Source: Alistipes sp. (GTDB taxonomy: Bacteria > Bacteroidota > Bacteroidia > Bacteroidales > Rikenellaceae). From it: a DNA stretch of 64,000 bases. The translations under genes and the position numbers were made by a program. The notes under the pieces were generated by a model. It searched no databases. It had not been told where the DNA came from and worked only from the letters and a program-made list of their open reading frames with translations. Below, in pieces: positions 37,273-56,906 of this stretch (within the stretch, counting starts at the first letter, position 1; every line of letters begins with the position of its first letter). The stretch covers positions 1-64,000 of the forward strand of contig JAJQCA010000014.1 of the NCBI GenBank assembly GCA_021202985.1, written 5' to 3'.

Positions 37273-37346
37273 TCCTCAATAGCTCAGTTGGTTAGAGCAC
37301 CTGACTGTTAATCAGGGGGTCCAAGGTTCAAGTCCTTGTTGAGGAG
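37273..37346 (+). tRNA. tRNA-Asn (anticodon GTT at 37307-37309)
   Basis: Cloverleaf read by eye: acceptor TCCTCAA/TTGAGGA, D-arm AGCTCAGTTGGTTAGAGC, anticodon arm CCTGA-CTGTTAA-TCAGG, T-arm CAAGG-TTCAAGT-CCTTG, discriminator G. Confidence 0.95.
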
Positions 37347-37354
37347 CACCGGGA

Positions 37355-37719: not shown

Positions 37720-38622
37720 ATGGAACACTTAGAAATACTAAAAACGGACGAAAGGGCCGCCAAAGCGTTTATTCCACGCCTGGGCGGGCTTTCCGCCGGG
37801 TTCCCATCCCCGGCGACGGATTACACGGGTGATGTCGTAGACCTGAACGAGCAGCTTATCACCAGCCACGGGAACACCTATTACGCCCGGGTGCTGGACG
37901 ACTATCTGCTCGAGGGTGAACTGGAACGCGGCGACTCCGTGCTGTTCGACGTCTCCATGCGCCCGGTGCGCGGCGATCTGGCCGTGTGCGTGATAGACGG
38001 GGAGGTGGTGCTGAAACGGATCGACCGGCGGCAGGGTCGTTACTGCATCGTGGAGACCTCCGGCCGCGTGGATAGCATCGGCCCGGACAGCGATTCCTAT
38101 GTAATGGGAATCGTAACCTCCGTCATCAAAACCCGCCGGCGCAAGGGCCGCCGCACGGTCATGACCGACGAGTCGATGTTCGGCAGGCTCGTGCATTCCC
38201 ACAAACGGGCCGTCAGGTGGGGTTACAGGCCGGAAGACCCCGCGGACACGGCCAACCTGGTGGACCTCAACAGGGAACTGGTACGCAACCGTATCTACAC
38301 CGCTTATGGTGAAATTTACGGCGACTCGCTCCGGGAAGACGCCATCGACAGCGGCGACGCGGTAATCATAGACCGTATCCTCGACCCGGTGGACGGCGAT
38401 TTGGTGATGAGCTACAACCAGTCGGAATTCCTCGTGAAATATATCGAGAAGCGGGCGGACGGCCTGTGGCTCGTACCGGGCAACCGGGAGTACGAACCGC
38501 TCCGCATCTCGGAAGAGGAGGAGACCGATAAACTCGTGTGGGGGATTATAACCTATTCCATAAAACAGTTACGGCGGAAAGGGGGCGGCAATGGGAAACC
38601 GAAGACAGTTGCCCGAGTTTAA
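37720..38622 (+). CDS. umuD-like: Tandem-fused UmuD-like protein: two LexA/UmuD-type (S24) domains in one polypeptide
   Basis: Start revised to MEHLEILKTDERAAKAF. Domain 1: SAGFPSPATDYTGDVVDLN ... VLDDYLLEG ... EVVLKRID. Domain 2: WGYRPEDPADTANLVDLN ... IYGDSLRED ... EFLVKYIEK. Each ends in a GI(V/I)T.SIK.(R)RRKG segment. Confidence 0.85.
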   Translation: MEHLEILKTDERAAKAFIPRLGGLSAGFPSPATDYTGDVVDLNEQLITSHGNTYYARVLDDYLLEGELERGDSVLFDVSMRPVRGDLAVCVIDGEVVLKRIDRRQGRYCIVETSGRVDSIGPDSDSYVMGIVTSVIKTRRRKGRRTVMTDESMFGRLVHSHKRAVRWGYRPEDPADTANLVDLNRELVRNRIYTAYGEIYGDSLREDAIDSGDAVIIDRILDPVDGDLVMSYNQSEFLVKYIEKRADGLWLVPGNREYEPLRISEEEETDKLVWGIITYSIKQLRRKGGGNGKPKTVARV

Positions 38623-39952
38623 TTCGCTCGGCATCCGGATAAACTGGTACGGGCTTGCCGACGGGAACAGTTTTTACTGCTCGTGCGAAACTTCGATCCA
38701 GCCATGGCTCGAAGGCCGGCCGGTGATAGTGGCTTCGAACAGCGACAAGATCGCCATCGCGCTCAACCGCAGGGCCAAATCGCTCGGCTTCCGGATGGGG
38801 GACCTTCTTTTCGAGAAGACCCGCGAACTTAAGCAGCACGGGGTGGTGGTATTTTCGAGCAACTACGAACTCTACGGCGACCTGTCGGCCCGGATGCATA
38901 CCTGCCTCGGTTCGTTCGTGGAGGAGATGCAAATCGAGTCTATCGACGAGGTTTTCCTGAAGTTCACCGGGTTCGACGATTGGGATATCGACGATTACGG
39001 ACGTACGATTATCCGCACGGTCCGCAAGGGCCTCTGGATACCCATAGCCCTCGGCATAGCCCCCACGCAGACCCTCGCCAAAGCGGCCAACAAACTGGCC
39101 AAGACCGAACTCGACCGGGAGAGCTGTTACGTGATAGCCACGGAAGAGGACCGGGCGGAGGCGCTGCGGAAACTCCCCCTGCACCAGGTGTGGGGCATCG
39201 GCCGGCGGTGGCACGACAAGCTGTGCCGCGAACTGGGCACCGCTTCCCCCACGGCATGGGACTTCGCCTCTATGTACCGTCCGCGGGTAAGGAAACTGCT
39301 CGGCGTGACGGGCGAACGAACCTACCTGGAGCTGAACGGCATAGAATGTATCCCGTTCTCCACCGAAGTCGACACGAAAGACCGCATATCCACCTCCCGG
39401 ATGTTCGCCGAATGCGTGACGGAATACGAGGCTGTCTTCGCCGCGGTACTCGACTACCTCTCCTCGTGCTGCCGTAAACTGCGCGGCCAACGGTCATACG
39501 CCGGGTCGGTCTACGTCTATTACCACACCAGCGTGCACGAGAACTACAAGGGCCCCAAGGACGCCCGCGGGCTGAAACTGGAGTTCCCCACCCCGCTCAA
39601 CACCGAGGCCGAGATTATCCCCTACGTCCGGACCATTATGCGCACCACCTGGCCCCGTTACGCTCCGGGCCAGACCCGGTACCGCTACCAGAAGGCGGGC
39701 GTGATACTCGAAGGCATCACCACTGCCGACGCCCGCCAGCTCAACTACGACAGCGACCCGGAACACTACGCCCGGATGGAGCGCCTGCAAACTGCTAAGG
39801 ATCTTATAAACGGAACCCGCAATATGGACAGCCGCCTGCTGAAATATGCCACCCAACTCACCAAAACCAAGAAGACCAAACTTCTGCGCACCATGAAAAC
39901 GGGCAACCCCACCACACTCTGGAAGGACAGGTTCCGGATAAGGAACACCTGA
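38591..39952 (+). CDS. umuC-like: UmuC-like Y-family DNA polymerase; start overlaps the umuD-like stop by 32 nt
   Basis: LADGNSFYCSCE, VVVFSSNYELYGDLSARM, IESIDEVFLKFTG, VWGIGRRW, RYRYQKAGVILEGI. Confidence 0.93.
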   Translation: MGNRRQLPEFNSLGIRINWYGLADGNSFYCSCETSIQPWLEGRPVIVASNSDKIAIALNRRAKSLGFRMGDLLFEKTRELKQHGVVVFSSNYELYGDLSARMHTCLGSFVEEMQIESIDEVFLKFTGFDDWDIDDYGRTIIRTVRKGLWIPIALGIAPTQTLAKAANKLAKTELDRESCYVIATEEDRAEALRKLPLHQVWGIGRRWHDKLCRELGTASPTAWDFASMYRPRVRKLLGVTGERTYLELNGIECIPFSTEVDTKDRISTSRMFAECVTEYEAVFAAVLDYLSSCCRKLRGQRSYAGSVYVYYHTSVHENYKGPKDARGLKLEFPTPLNTEAEIIPYVRTIMRTTWPRYAPGQTRYRYQKAGVILEGITTADARQLNYDSDPEHYARMERLQTAKDLINGTRNMDSRLLKYATQLTKTKKTKLLRTMKTGNPTTLWKDRFRIRNT

Positions 39953-40116
39953 GCCCGCCCGGAGAAAGGGATACCGTCCATTTCTTAGTTATCCGGATAA
40001 CATATTGAAGATACACCGCCGGGCGTGCAGTGCAGTTGGGCAAAGTTCCTGAAGACGGGAAGATGCTTGATTCCCCGCTCCCGGCCGGGATACGGGACCG
40101 GTAAAGAATAGAATAT

Positions 40117-40291
40117 TTCCGCACCGGGCACGGGCCGGGAAAAAGTTAAGCAATCTCGATTCCCGTCCCGGAGTAAGTTTTCGTATCGGCAAAGGGGCAA
40201 TACTTCCGCACCGGGCACGGGGCGGGAAAAAGTTAAGCAATCCCGATTCCTCTCCCGGAGGCAAGTTCCGTATCGGAGGACAGGCAAATAC
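40117..40291. repeat. About 87-bp tandem repeat, two clear copies (40117-40203, 40204-40291) with degenerate flanking partial copies
   Basis: TTCCGCACCGGGCACGGGsCGGGAAAAAGTTAAGCAATCyCGATTCC... recurs with 87-nt period; TTCCGG at 40292 begins a partial third copy. Confidence 0.85.
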
Positions 40292-40505: not shown

Positions 40506-41789
40506 ATGACAAGTTACCGTTTTCATTTCCGGCCCTCGCCAGGCAAGGGCCCCGGAATGGGCGTCCTGTTTATCCGTGTTATCCATAACCGCCGGTACAA
40601 AGATATCGGACGCGGTTACGTGATATCGGAGGACGAATGGGACCCGCAGTCAAGATGGGTAAGGTTATCCGGAACCGACCCGGCCCGCACATCCCGGCTC
40701 CAGGCCATATCGGAGTCGATGAAAGGTGATCATGCCCGTATGGAGTCACTACTTTCATTACTTTCCGCGCGGGGGGAATACACCCTGGAAGATATCGCCG
40801 CCCTGTTCGGCACCTCGCGGCAGGACAATACCCTTATGGGTTACACCGCCATTGTTAAGGAAGAGCTGGTGGCCGACGACCGTTACCGTACGGCACGGGC
40901 TTACCTCTCCGCAGCCAAAAGCCTCGTAACGTTCACGGGAAAAGATATTCCGCTGGGGGAAATCACTGCCGCGCTTATCCGTGCCTACGAAAGATACCTC
41001 TTCGACAAGGGGCTGAAGATGAACACCGTTTCATTTTATATGCGCAATCTCCGGGCTATATATTACCGGGCGGTGAAGGCAGGGCTGATAGTAAAACAAC
41101 CCGTCAACCCTTTCGATGATGTTTACACAGGTGTTTTCGAGACGCGGCGCCGTTCGCTGGACCACGATCAGATAAGCCGGCTCACCGCGCTCGAAGCCGT
41201 ATTGAACCGGAAACTGAACGAATGCGAAAGGCAGGGACGCCACGCAGTGCAAGGGGAAAGCATCCAACTGCGCCGGCTTAAAGAGGCGTTGATGTACTTT
41301 ATGTTCGCATTTCACTCCCGCGGTATGTCGTTCGTCGACCTTGCATATCTTCGGAAGTCCGACCTGACGGGCGACACTTTAATATACAAACGCCGCAAAA
41401 CGGGATTCTTTATGGAGGTTAAGATAACCCGGCCGATGAAAAAAATAATAAACTATTTCAAAAAGCAGACCGCCGCTACGCCATACATATTCCCCATAAT
41501 CGATAGCCAAACCTGCCACCGGCGGCAGTATGAAACGGCTCTGAGCCGTCAGAACAGGTTGCTGAAGGTGCTTGCGGGTATGGCCTGTATCTGCAAAAAC
41601 CTTTCTACCCACGTAGCGCGCCACACCTGGGCCACCATGGCAAAAAGGATGGGATACAGCATACCGGTAATAAGCGAGGGATTGGGTCACCGCGATACCA
41701 AGGTCACGTCTATTTACCTCGATTCGTTCGGGAGATCCACCCTCGACGAACTGAGCACACGCCTGTCCAAAGCCGTAAACGCCGCATAA
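40506..41789 (+). CDS. Tyrosine-type site-specific recombinase (Bacteroidota integrase/invertase type)
   Basis: Catalytic set present: Arg in FHSRGMSFVDLAYL, Lys in KRRKTGF, THVARHTWATMA (HxxR), GLGHRDTKVTSIYLDSF (H, Tyr). Confidence 0.95.
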   Translation: MTSYRFHFRPSPGKGPGMGVLFIRVIHNRRYKDIGRGYVISEDEWDPQSRWVRLSGTDPARTSRLQAISESMKGDHARMESLLSLLSARGEYTLEDIAALFGTSRQDNTLMGYTAIVKEELVADDRYRTARAYLSAAKSLVTFTGKDIPLGEITAALIRAYERYLFDKGLKMNTVSFYMRNLRAIYYRAVKAGLIVKQPVNPFDDVYTGVFETRRRSLDHDQISRLTALEAVLNRKLNECERQGRHAVQGESIQLRRLKEALMYFMFAFHSRGMSFVDLAYLRKSDLTGDTLIYKRRKTGFFMEVKITRPMKKIINYFKKQTAATPYIFPIIDSQTCHRRQYETALSRQNRLLKVLAGMACICKNLSTHVARHTWATMAKRMGYSIPVISEGLGHRDTKVTSIYLDSFGRSTLDELSTRLSKAVNAA

Positions 41790-53500: not shown

Positions 53501-53904
53501 GGGAAAGCGGTATCGACAAAATGCTTACATGGGCCGAGGCAATGGGCGTCGACCCCTACTATAACGACCAAACTCACTATAATACTTGGGAAAACGTCTT
53601 GCGGGAAAATTACGGTTATACTCCTACGCACAATACGGGCTGTAATGCCTATACGGATATCGGCATGACTACCCGGGATTTCATACTTCCCAGATCGTTC
53701 GAAGTGGAAGAAATGCTACGCGTACAGGTCAGCGGGGCTTACGATTTCGGGATAACGGAGGGGATGAAATTCCACACCTCGTATGACGGCGGAATGGACA
53801 TTTCGAGAATCTACTGGCTCGAGAACGGACGAATCGAATATACCGAGTCGCCCGGGAACAAGAACGTCCCGGCGTATGTGAGGTGTATAACCAGATTCGA
53901 GTAA
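50578..53904 (+). CDS. Second large fimbrial tip-like lipoprotein, paralogous architecture
   Basis: ALLAALVACSKEDGD; GVTTRLTGAQESAVNEVRVVWFDQSGTFVHY; HPAGWKVADSPTWITVTPDRS; C-terminal VPAYVRCITRFE. Confidence 0.75.
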   Translation: MQSIRYILAIALLAALVACSKEDGDSAPTDARGEIEVGISFLVPDSPDRDGVTTRLTGAQESAVNEVRVVWFDQSGTFVHYAVGLDPDVSGSVHSCRVLMNEGVYDIMVLANSAEWFEAVYPSGIPAGTTLEAFAAAIVAECTGVMTWSGNTVPMWGMKETVTVSKTSYQVSGITLTRALVRVDVKVDPSVTASRFELEAVTVYRNYRKGRLVPVLVSDHWNNTTGTALKPSLPTGADLVNNDGRAFPATAGEVSNSIYFFETPAGEDLSLSVNDRNPCLIVRGKYNGGTASFYRIDFTKSSSTSAEYIDLLRNNVYEVVIQQVDRDGAASEADALKGRPANITYNISEVNKSGMTNIAWDGQHYLMASADSLTYWSGASTAALRIQTNHPAGWKVADSPTWITVTPDRSEYTAESTVEVAATAYTGSAPRTGQLVLASGELELTVEITQSNLEELSLYLDTNTIIFYAEGGSHTVTSSGLPAVSASGTSLAIEYIGDISYASPPAVATTPSFTLTANANTGGNLLTGVVTVSKTLNDRTVRQEIAVRQYPGTNPFAITTDSPYPAIEQTDARIWVTCSQDWYLKRSVPSGAASITGTQAGSPSPRECDLVIAANESYTDREITLLFSTADDMYEYEVTITQEGAVPYFFFYNLLMDDLYEHTFTGSAATTVNVGFDLNFPWRFSETGMGGIVAGVSHQPGTVYPVENITEGKQETISFTSIDYTNRTGMPAAGTVQSAEAYIYSENTDPYPSALYGTIKLNRVIPSVIDYIGSSISPAVGNIPREGGTISVTAGSNDQWSISATGVNSSPVAPKGTEYEVNTLSVQIPANNDFGNGKEIEVFYTHDGQQVKAATYIQEEYTILATDLTGTKSQLSYPYLLVGYGDVLSGKIKGNYPDVYLAVRRDNTTYSSKFFPAGTEDEFSFDIPSNPTTGEYEWVLSYSTDASNWTVLNTLKQYPPNYLYNRLFYGLENYRESGIDKMLTWAEAMGVDPYYNDQTHYNTWENVLRENYGYTPTHNTGCNAYTDIGMTTRDFILPRSFEVEEMLRVQVSGAYDFGITEGMKFHTSYDGGMDISRIYWLENGRIEYTESPGNKNVPAYVRCITRFE

Positions 53905-53920
53905 ATCTACATTCCAACTT

Positions 53921-53944
53921 ACCGGCCGCTTATCAGCGGCCGGT
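53921..53944. terminator. Terminator ACCGGCCGCT-TATC-AGCGGCCGGT followed by AGTTTT
   Basis: 10-bp perfect stem after the last fimbrial gene. Confidence 0.85.
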
Positions 53945-54023
53945 AGTTTTATGTTGCGGTTGTTGTCCGCGGAAGCCTGACGGATTCGTTATTCACCGCA
54001 AGATAAATACCTATAATAGGGGA

Positions 54024-54055
54024 TTGCCTGACATACGAAATCTTTATTACTTTTG
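54024..54055 (+). promoter_or_regulatory. Bacteroidota promoter: TTG (54024-54026), -7 TACTTTTG (54048-54055)
   Basis: TAnnTTTG match with 21-nt spacer, about 10 nt before ATG 54066. Confidence 0.6.
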
Positions 54056-54065
54056 TATTCAAACT

Positions 54066-56906
54066 ATGAGATATACGGCTTTCAGAATCGTCCTTGCGGG
54101 GCTTTTACTATTTTGTTTCATCCATGTCCACGCCCAGACTCCCGGTAACACCGTTTCCGGCCGTATAACCGATACCAGGACCCGTGAGCCCGTAGGCGGG
54201 GCCGACATAGTGTTAGAAGGTACTTATTTGTGGGCCACTTCGGGACGGGACGGACGGTTCGAAATAGCGGGGGTGCCTGCCGGGGAGTACTCGCTACGCG
54301 TGTCGTTCCTGGGTTACTTGACCTCCGTCCTGCCGCTATCCGTGGGCGGCGACGTGGCCGCACTGGACATCCGGCTTACTGAAAACACCCTTAAAATAGA
54401 CGAGGTGGTCGTTACCGCCCGCACGAAGGAGAACGAACTCAACACCACCTGGACCATAGGCGGCGATGCGCTACGCCAGATGCAGGTCTCCAACATTTCC
54501 GATATTGCCGCACTGCTTCCCGGCGGAAAGACCCAGAACCCCGACCTCGCGTCGGATCGCGACCAGACGTTCGCACTTCGCGGCTCCGGCTCGGTGGACG
54601 ACAACCTGCGGTTCGCCACCGCGGTAGAAATCGACGGGGTCCGTCTCGGCAACAATGCGTCTTTCGGCGCCCTGGGCGGGGTCGACACCCGGAATATAGC
54701 GGTGGACAATATCGACCATGTCGAGATAATCACCGGCGTACCCTCGGTGGAATACGGCGATTTCAACAGCGGTATCGTCCGTATCCACACGCGCAAGGGC
54801 CACACGCCGTGGAGCGCGCAGGCTTCGGTCAATCCCCGCACACAGCAGGCCTCCGTTTCGAAGGGGTTCGACCTGGGCGAAAACAGAGGAACGCTCAACA
54901 TAAACGGCGAATGGACAAAAGCCACGCAGAAGCTCAGCTCGCCTTACACATCCTATACCCGCCGGGGCTTCTCGGCGGCTTACAGCAATACCTTCCGCGG
55001 AAACCTGCGTTTCGAAGCCGGGGTGACCGGCAACGTGGGCGGAATGAATTCCAAAGACGACCCGGACGCTTACACCGGGGAGTATACAAAAGTTAGGGAC
55101 AACGTGTTCCGCGCCAACGGCTCCCTTACATGGCTGCTCAACAAACCGTGGGTCACCAACCTGAAGCTGGACGCGGCCGTAAATTTAAACGACAACCGTT
55201 CAAAAGCCCACCTGTATTACTCCTACGCGTCCGAACAACCGGCGGTCCACGCAGTGGAGGAAGGATATTTCCTTGCGGACAAACTTCCACTCGAATACTT
55301 CGCCGACCGCATCGTCGACTCGAAGGAGCTGGATTACTCGGCATCGCTGAAATACGAGCTGAACATTACCCGGGGACAGGTCCGTAACCGGATAAAGGCA
55401 GGCGTGCAGTGGAAGGCCAACGGGAATGCGGGCGACGGGGAGTATTACCTCGACCCGGCCCTTGCCCCGAACGGTTACCGTCCGCGGCCGTACAGTGAGT
55501 ACCCGTATATGCACAACCTCGCGGTCTATGCCGAGGACAACGTATCTTTCCCGGTGGGGCGGACCACCGTGGAAGTGATGGCAGGCATAAGGATGGAGAA
55601 CCTGTTTATAGACGGATCGCAGTACGACCGCCTTTACAGTTTCTCGCCGAGGTTCAACGCACGCTGGCACCTGAACGATTGGATAACCGTTCGGGGCGGC
55701 TGGGGTGTGACGGAGAAACTGCCGTCGTTCCACGTGCTCTACCCCGACCGGCAGTACCGTGACATACAGACCTTCGGTATCTCCTACGGCGAGGAAACGT
55801 CGTACGTTTATTACACCCAGCCCTACATGCTCGAGCACAACGCCGGGCTGAAATGGCAGCGTAACCACAACAGCGAGCTTGCCGCGGATGTAAACGTGGC
55901 CGGGTTCCGGATCTCGCTCGCCGGCTATATTAACCGCACCAAACTTCCCTATAAATACTCGACCACCTATACGCCCTACTCTTACAATATCCAGCAGTTA
56001 CCGTCCGGTTACAGGGTCCCTCCAAACCCGGAGATAAGGGTCGACAGCCAGACCGGACAGGTATACCTGCGCGGCGATGGGCAGAACGCCTGGACCCCGA
56101 TGGAGACCAACGTCGTAGACCGGACCTTTGTCCGCAACACCTATTCGGACAACGGCCCCGACATGGTCCGAAAAGGCGTAGAGCTGGTGGTCGACTTCCC
56201 GCAGGTGGAGGCTATCCGCACCCGGTTCCGTGTGGATGCGGCATACGGCTATACCCGCTACCTCGATAACTCCCTCTCGTGGTACTACCGTGAAGGCTGG
56301 TCCCACACCTCGTTGCCGAACCGCTCGTACGAATATGTGGGTATATACGCCGGGGGTTCGGGCACCTCGGTATTCAACGGCCAGCGGACACACTCCATGG
56401 ATGCGAACGTGACTGCCGTTACACACATTCCCCGCGCCCGGATAGTCATCTCATGCCGGCTGGAAATGTCGCTGCTCAAACGGTCTCAGAAACTCTCGCG
56501 GTACAACGGGCAGGAGTACGCATTCAACGTCGGCGAATCATCCGACACACCAACGGGCGGAAGCATCTACGACGGGAATTCCTACACGGCCATCTGGCCC
56601 GTAGCATACGTGGACCTGGACGGGAATATCCACCCGTTCACCTCCGCGGAAGCCGCCGATGCGCGGTTCGCCAACCTTTTGGTCAAATCGGGCAACGCCT
56701 ACACCTTCGCCAAAGACGGTTATAACGCATACTATTATGCAAACCTAAGCGTTACGAAGGAGATAGGCGACCATGTGTCGCTCTCGTTCTTCGCCAATAA
56801 CTTCACCAATTCCCGTAAACATGTCACATCCAAGGCCACCGGGATAGGTACCACGACCTTCTATCCCAAGTTCTATTACGGCCTTACGTGCCGGATAAAA
56901 ATTTAA
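54066..56906 (+). CDS. TonB-dependent receptor with N-terminal carboxypeptidase-like domain
   Basis: Start revised to MRYTAFRIVLAGLLLFCFIHVHAQ; GRITDTRTREPVGGADIVLEGTYLWATSGRDGRFEIAGVPAGEYSLRVSFLGY; EVVVTARTKEN; plug and barrel, C-terminal FYYGLTCRIKI. Confidence 0.92.
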   Translation: MRYTAFRIVLAGLLLFCFIHVHAQTPGNTVSGRITDTRTREPVGGADIVLEGTYLWATSGRDGRFEIAGVPAGEYSLRVSFLGYLTSVLPLSVGGDVAALDIRLTENTLKIDEVVVTARTKENELNTTWTIGGDALRQMQVSNISDIAALLPGGKTQNPDLASDRDQTFALRGSGSVDDNLRFATAVEIDGVRLGNNASFGALGGVDTRNIAVDNIDHVEIITGVPSVEYGDFNSGIVRIHTRKGHTPWSAQASVNPRTQQASVSKGFDLGENRGTLNINGEWTKATQKLSSPYTSYTRRGFSAAYSNTFRGNLRFEAGVTGNVGGMNSKDDPDAYTGEYTKVRDNVFRANGSLTWLLNKPWVTNLKLDAAVNLNDNRSKAHLYYSYASEQPAVHAVEEGYFLADKLPLEYFADRIVDSKELDYSASLKYELNITRGQVRNRIKAGVQWKANGNAGDGEYYLDPALAPNGYRPRPYSEYPYMHNLAVYAEDNVSFPVGRTTVEVMAGIRMENLFIDGSQYDRLYSFSPRFNARWHLNDWITVRGGWGVTEKLPSFHVLYPDRQYRDIQTFGISYGEETSYVYYTQPYMLEHNAGLKWQRNHNSELAADVNVAGFRISLAGYINRTKLPYKYSTTYTPYSYNIQQLPSGYRVPPNPEIRVDSQTGQVYLRGDGQNAWTPMETNVVDRTFVRNTYSDNGPDMVRKGVELVVDFPQVEAIRTRFRVDAAYGYTRYLDNSLSWYYREGWSHTSLPNRSYEYVGIYAGGSGTSVFNGQRTHSMDANVTAVTHIPRARIVISCRLEMSLLKRSQKLSRYNGQEYAFNVGESSDTPTGGSIYDGNSYTAIWPVAYVDLDGNIHPFTSAEAADARFANLLVKSGNAYTFAKDGYNAYYYANLSVTKEIGDHVSLSFFANNFTNSRKHVTSKATGIGTTTFYPKFYYGLTCRIKI

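Follow-up and report, generated by a model that had tools for sequence, protein, structure and literature searches.

A fused double UmuD from gut Bacteroidales with the predicted cleavable arm on one half and the intact catalytic dyad on the other

Introduction

Must a UmuD subunit be both substrate and protease, or can the two roles be divided between the halves of a single chain? On RecA-bound single-stranded DNA, Escherichia coli UmuD is cut using S60 and K97, and its arms can also be cut by the partner subunit (PMC5342242). The question is raised by a locus in a 64,000-nucleotide stretch of an Alistipes sp. contig (JAJQCA010000014.1, positions 1 to 64,000; hereafter the window). An initial annotation, made from the sequence, had read one gene of this stretch as two joined UmuD-like domains with complementary defects, the first retaining the scissile bond and the second the catalytic serine. 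Here we follow that gene through its anatomy, its conservation, its relatives and its genomic setting.

Anatomy of the tandem UmuD gene

Positions 37720-38622 of the forward strand translate as a single open frame of 300 amino acids with one stop. Each half separately matches Peptidase_S24 in Pfam (E 1.4e-10 and 6e-13) as well as E. coli UmuD structures, and the NCBIfam model PRK10276 (UmuD) matches the protein in two stretches, with 154 bits against a cut-off of 110. Translation, Pfam and PRK10276 thus bear out the reading of two UmuD-like domains in one chain, as opposed to a single UmuD domain of ~140 amino acids. LexA identity is not supported (TIGR00498, 72 bits against a cut-off of 110.95; DNA-binding domain absent in Pfam), nor is HumD identity (NCBIfam NF051876, 81.6 bits against a cut-off of 120).

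The first half begins with an N-terminal arm (residues 1-26, 37720-37797) reaching up to the A26|G27 scissile position at 37797/37798, which lies within AGFPSPATDY and aligns to C24-G25 of E. coli UmuD. The core that follows (residues 27-138, 37798-38133) has a predicted UmuD'-like fold and lacks the nucleophile: the motif reads DDYL instead of GDSM, placing Tyr62 (37903-37905) at the position of Ser60. Lys99 (38014-38016), aligned to the general base Lys97 of E. coli and unmentioned in the initial annotation, is kept, and since it is kept the catalytic defect of half 1 in the window concerns the nucleophile only. Residues 139-178 (38134-38253) form a linker, or vestigial arm of half 2, with W167-G168 (38218-38223, in RWGYRPEDP) at the cleavage position. 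The half 2 core (residues 179-286, 38254-38577) carries an intact dyad, with Ser203 of GDSL (38326-38328) as predicted nucleophile and Lys240 of EFLVKYIE (38437-38439) as predicted general base. The residues that the initial annotation had assigned to the Ala-Gly bond, the tyrosine, the Trp-Gly pair and the dyad, and the positions that it gave, all proved correct. Neither half unites a cleavable site, Ser and Lys in one domain; only the two halves combined do so. Internal initiation at Met148 (38161) may occur and would yield a separate, arm-poor half 2.

An AlphaFold model of half 1 built with 35 relatives had a mean pLDDT of 79.6. Its best PDB hit in Foldseek was UmuD bound to RecA (8gmt, E 1.8e-6, TM (target) 0.80), followed by UmuD' (1ay9 and 1umu), and half 1 is predicted to have the UmuD fold. 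The initial annotation had staked its reading on both halves being UmuD/S24 domains; both are S24, half 1 being UmuD-like by its model and half 2 by sequence. The full-length fusion, modelled from two sequences only, gave a mean pLDDT of 43. A deeper alignment that combined the fusion with single UmuDs was rejected: MAFFT split the singles, sending their arm and N-terminal part to half 1 and their catalytic part to half 2. This splitting is the same division of roles seen differently.

Conservation of the fused frame

A second genome of the genus (G001, a Rikenellaceae MAG, contig JAJBVT010000018) contains the same fused frame, 91% identical, adjoining the same tRNA-Asn, umuC and integrase as in the window. 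An orthologue with this frame in a second genome excludes an assembly accident. Between the two genomes dN/dS within the tandem gene is lowest in the half 2 core (0.024) and stands at 0.098 in the arm, 0.10 in the half 1 core and 0.118 in the linker; in UmuC it is 0.062. These low values indicate purifying selection on both halves, the dead half 1 included. Single-domain homologues kept the A/C-G site, Ser and Lys without exception, in 97 of 97 distinct sequences and then in 157 of 157 of a larger set. The viral part of the larger set had been retrieved by patterns that included AGFPSPA, which biases conservation of the site upwards and leaves that of Ser and Lys unbiased. The orthologue, the 157 intact singles and the dN/dS values together rule out chance or assembly error as the source of the defects.

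Genomic setting

The tandem gene overlaps by 32 bases a UmuC-like Y-family polymerase gene on the same strand (38591-39952; Pfam IMS 7.6e-25, IMS_C 1.9e-12), whose product, aligned with E. coli UmuC, has the catalytic D and the SIDE motif intact. This UmuC reads QLNY where E. coli UmuC reads QLNLF and, unlike the other three tandem-associated UmuCs described below, has no DUF4113 match. The umuC of G001 carries an in-frame TAG (L023:8362-8364) where the window has CAG, giving two frames; this may be a nonsense allele, a population variant or an assembly error. An 87-base unit is present in two head-to-tail copies, 83% identical, at 40112-40285, between umuC and a tyrosine integrase gene (40506-41789) that occupies the same place in G001. 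As for integration at the tRNA-Asn gene (37273-37347), no att-like repeat of the tRNA end was found elsewhere within the window. Further along the window, positions 53883-56906 encode a TonB-dependent receptor with a carboxypeptidase-regulatory-like domain.

The published Bacteroidetes SOS motif CTAA-N5-TTAG has no match just upstream of the tandem gene, and SOS control is therefore unsupported at this promoter. The source genome has a RecA gene, and its S24 domains are confined to the two of the tandem protein and one other protein, a 233-amino-acid open frame (G000 contig 35, 59397-59657; L212) that is possibly an SOS or phage-type repressor. With RecA present and only one other S24 protein in the genome, half 2 is the obvious protease to act on half 1.

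Tandem UmuDs in other lineages

We searched about 1,500 species genomes of Bacteroidota and phylum-level relatives, together with phage and plasmid records, for the two-domain architecture that the initial annotation had suggested looking for in Bacteroidota. At least three further tandem lineages were found, all deeply diverged: one on a Bacteroides ovatus plasmid and two in other Rikenellaceae (G003 and G634). The plasmid copy (WP_050486416.1; B. ovatus 3725 D1 iv plasmid NZ_CP041396.1, 107613-108401) has a Y-family polymerase directly downstream, and a near-identical copy occurs in MT836424.1, a faecal 'phage' record. RefSeq annotates WP_050486416.1 as 'S24 family peptidase', a name that conceals the tandem UmuD. 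The G003 protein (contig 3) has 269 amino acids; that of G634 (contig 31) has 309, is 54-55% identical to G003 and is overlapped downstream by umuC. Identity to the window protein is 35% for the plasmid type (P0004) and 24% for G003 (P0005). No tandem UmuD was present among the 85 viral loci found with alignments, and the window and plasmid proteins found no relatives on viral contigs. The two-gene version, a dead and an active umuD side by side, was absent from about 200 loci.

The reciprocal defects recur in each lineage, with different residues. At the serine position of halves 1 and 2, respectively, the window and G001 read DDYL and GDSL, the plasmid and MT836424 EDFF and GNSM, G003 HSGM and GVSM, and G634 DLQM and GESM. 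The lysine position of half 1 is Lys in the window and G001, Met in the plasmid type and Arg in both G003 and G634. The cleavage position of half 2 is W-G, L-K, A-G and G-G in the same order of lineages. In all four lineages half 1 keeps A-G and has lost Ser (to Tyr, Phe, Gly and Gln). The dyad of half 2, Ser with Lys, is likewise present in all four, and its cleavage site is lost in three and kept in G003. Loss of Ser from half 1, compared between tandems and singles, gives a Fisher p of ~4e-8 when lineages are counted as independent, and their independence is not established. The umuC gene lies directly downstream of the tandem gene in three of the four lineages, and UmuC catalytic residues are intact in every one. 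In G003 an opposite-strand gene stands between tandem umuD and umuC (L022:3149-4255), breaking the usual operon. The linkers also vary, from ~40 residues in the window to much shorter in G003 and G634.

The initial annotation had gone on to propose an obligate pseudo-heterodimer with substrate and protease roles split between the halves. The part of this proposal that stands is the split as an evolved pattern, which is well supported by its recurrence in four diverged tandem lineages with differing residues at the dead Ser position and by the predicted UmuD fold of half 1.

Origin of the fusion

A tree of the domains does not resolve the deep branches, and it rejects a single origin neither for all first halves (AU p 0.29) nor for all second halves (AU p 0.27). 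A single clade of tandem-associated UmuCs fits the polymerase data, with the constrained tree beating the free search by 6.5 log units, and is both compatible with the UmuC tree and slightly preferred by it. Under a shared origin of the four lineages, the loss of Ser in half 1 may be a single event. Even then, drift of the dead site beside a fixed A-G in half 1, and the reverse in half 2, would be what divided labour predicts.

Proposed mechanism and alternatives

The protein is probably a covalent UmuD pseudo-dimer that splits its roles between the halves and manages the adjacent UmuC-like polymerase. Half 1 would supply a regulatory arm open to cleavage, joined to a UmuD' core unable to cut, and half 2 would be the sole Ser/Lys protease of the pair, without a usable arm of its own. 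The two halves would pair like a UmuD dimer; once ssDNA-RecA filaments form, half 2 would become competent and reach across the pseudo-dimer interface to cut A26|G27 of half 1, as extrapolated from E. coli; and this one cut would turn a D-D'-like into a D'-D'-like molecule, activating UmuC. Compared with a homodimer, the fusion would require one cut and not two, would pass through no mixed intermediate or subunit exchange, and would lock the pair one to one. In E. coli, UmuD 18 efficiently cuts UmuD S60A in trans, its own shortened arm leaving it uncleavable (PMC5342242). The proposed chemistry has a precedent in this pair, whose members resemble the two halves of the fusion as separate chains.

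Several observations count against this split pseudo-dimer. The second site is not lost everywhere, as G003 half 2 keeps its A-G; only ~9 residues separate this site from the last strand of half 1, an arm length comparable to that of UmuD 18, and the site may be poorly cleavable. Half 1 of the window retains its general-base position in Lys99. The G003 umuC is separated from the tandem gene, and the G001 umuC has the in-frame TAG.

An unlikely alternative is that cleavage is inter-molecular, half 2 of one fusion cutting the arm of another, in which case the fusion would chiefly ensure co-expression and stoichiometry and would not form an internal pseudo-dimer. UmuD does cleave in trans between subunits (PMC5342242), and the window linker is long enough for either arrangement, but the much shorter linkers of G003 and G634 would favour pairing of neighbouring halves. 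Less likely still, there may be no self-cleaving switch at all: half 1 would be structural, its arm regulating partners such as the clamp or the replicative polymerase, and the dyad of half 2 would be vestigial or directed at another substrate. Uncleaved E. coli UmuD has roles of its own through its arms (PMC5342242); yet Ser and Lys of half 2 and A-G of half 1 are kept in four lineages, where dead-site residues drift, and the half 2 core has the lowest dN/dS of the protein. That the gene is a decaying tandem duplicate or stop-loss fusion of no special design, as the lost half 1 nucleophile and the nonsense codon in G001 umuC might suggest, is scarcely credible given purifying selection on both halves, the same asymmetry in four lineages and a frame intact in two species of the genus.

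Taking the split pseudo-dimer as the preferred reading, we lean slightly towards a broader one: that these loci represent an undescribed class of polymerase V, in which a single intramolecular cut in a covalent, pre-trimmed UmuD pseudo-heterodimer would switch on mutagenesis, with neither mixed nor exchanged dimers. Such loci are maintained both on chromosomes of gut Bacteroidales and on a mobilizable Bacteroides plasmid. Both its own arm and that of its partner seem to be within reach of wild-type UmuD (PMC5342242). The fusion bears on the old question of own against partner's arm by fixing the roles: half 1 would be the only arm open to half 2, whether in the same fusion or in another. It would also be an asymmetric tool for studying how polymerase V responds to a single cut, a single arm and a fixed pair, and it illustrates a route from a self-cleaving homodimer to a pair with divided labour.

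Comparison with known systems

The fusion shares with E. coli UmuD/UmuD' (PRK10276, the manager of polymerase V) the S24 fold, the arm and core, the GFPSPA context, the Ser/Lys dyad (here in half 2) and the umuC neighbour. E. coli UmuD, however, is a single-domain homodimer in which each subunit is both substrate and protease, whereas the fusion has two domains in one chain with divided roles. HumD of phage P1 (NF051876) is a UmuD'-like, arm-free product form comparable to half 2 of the fusion, from which it differs in having a single domain. Acinetobacter UmuDAb is a UmuD with additional N-terminal material (PMC8565304, PMC4807011), but there the extra part binds DNA as a domain of its own and represses transcription, whereas in the fusion it is a second UmuD. 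Among the SOS regulators of Bacteroidetes, a survey records UmuD homologues that lack a DNA-binding domain, with no mention of a fused UmuD in the sections consulted (PMC8565304). The initial annotation had allowed that the architecture might already be described; the open-access papers searched contain no description of a natural covalent division of labour in UmuD. The closest known counterpart is the pair of UmuD S60A and UmuD 18, in which one partner has an arm without a nucleophile and the other an active site without a usable arm (PMC5342242). That pair is laboratory-made and consists of separate chains, whereas the fusion is natural and covalent. The parts and the chemistry are already known, and the natural covalent split is what appears to be new.
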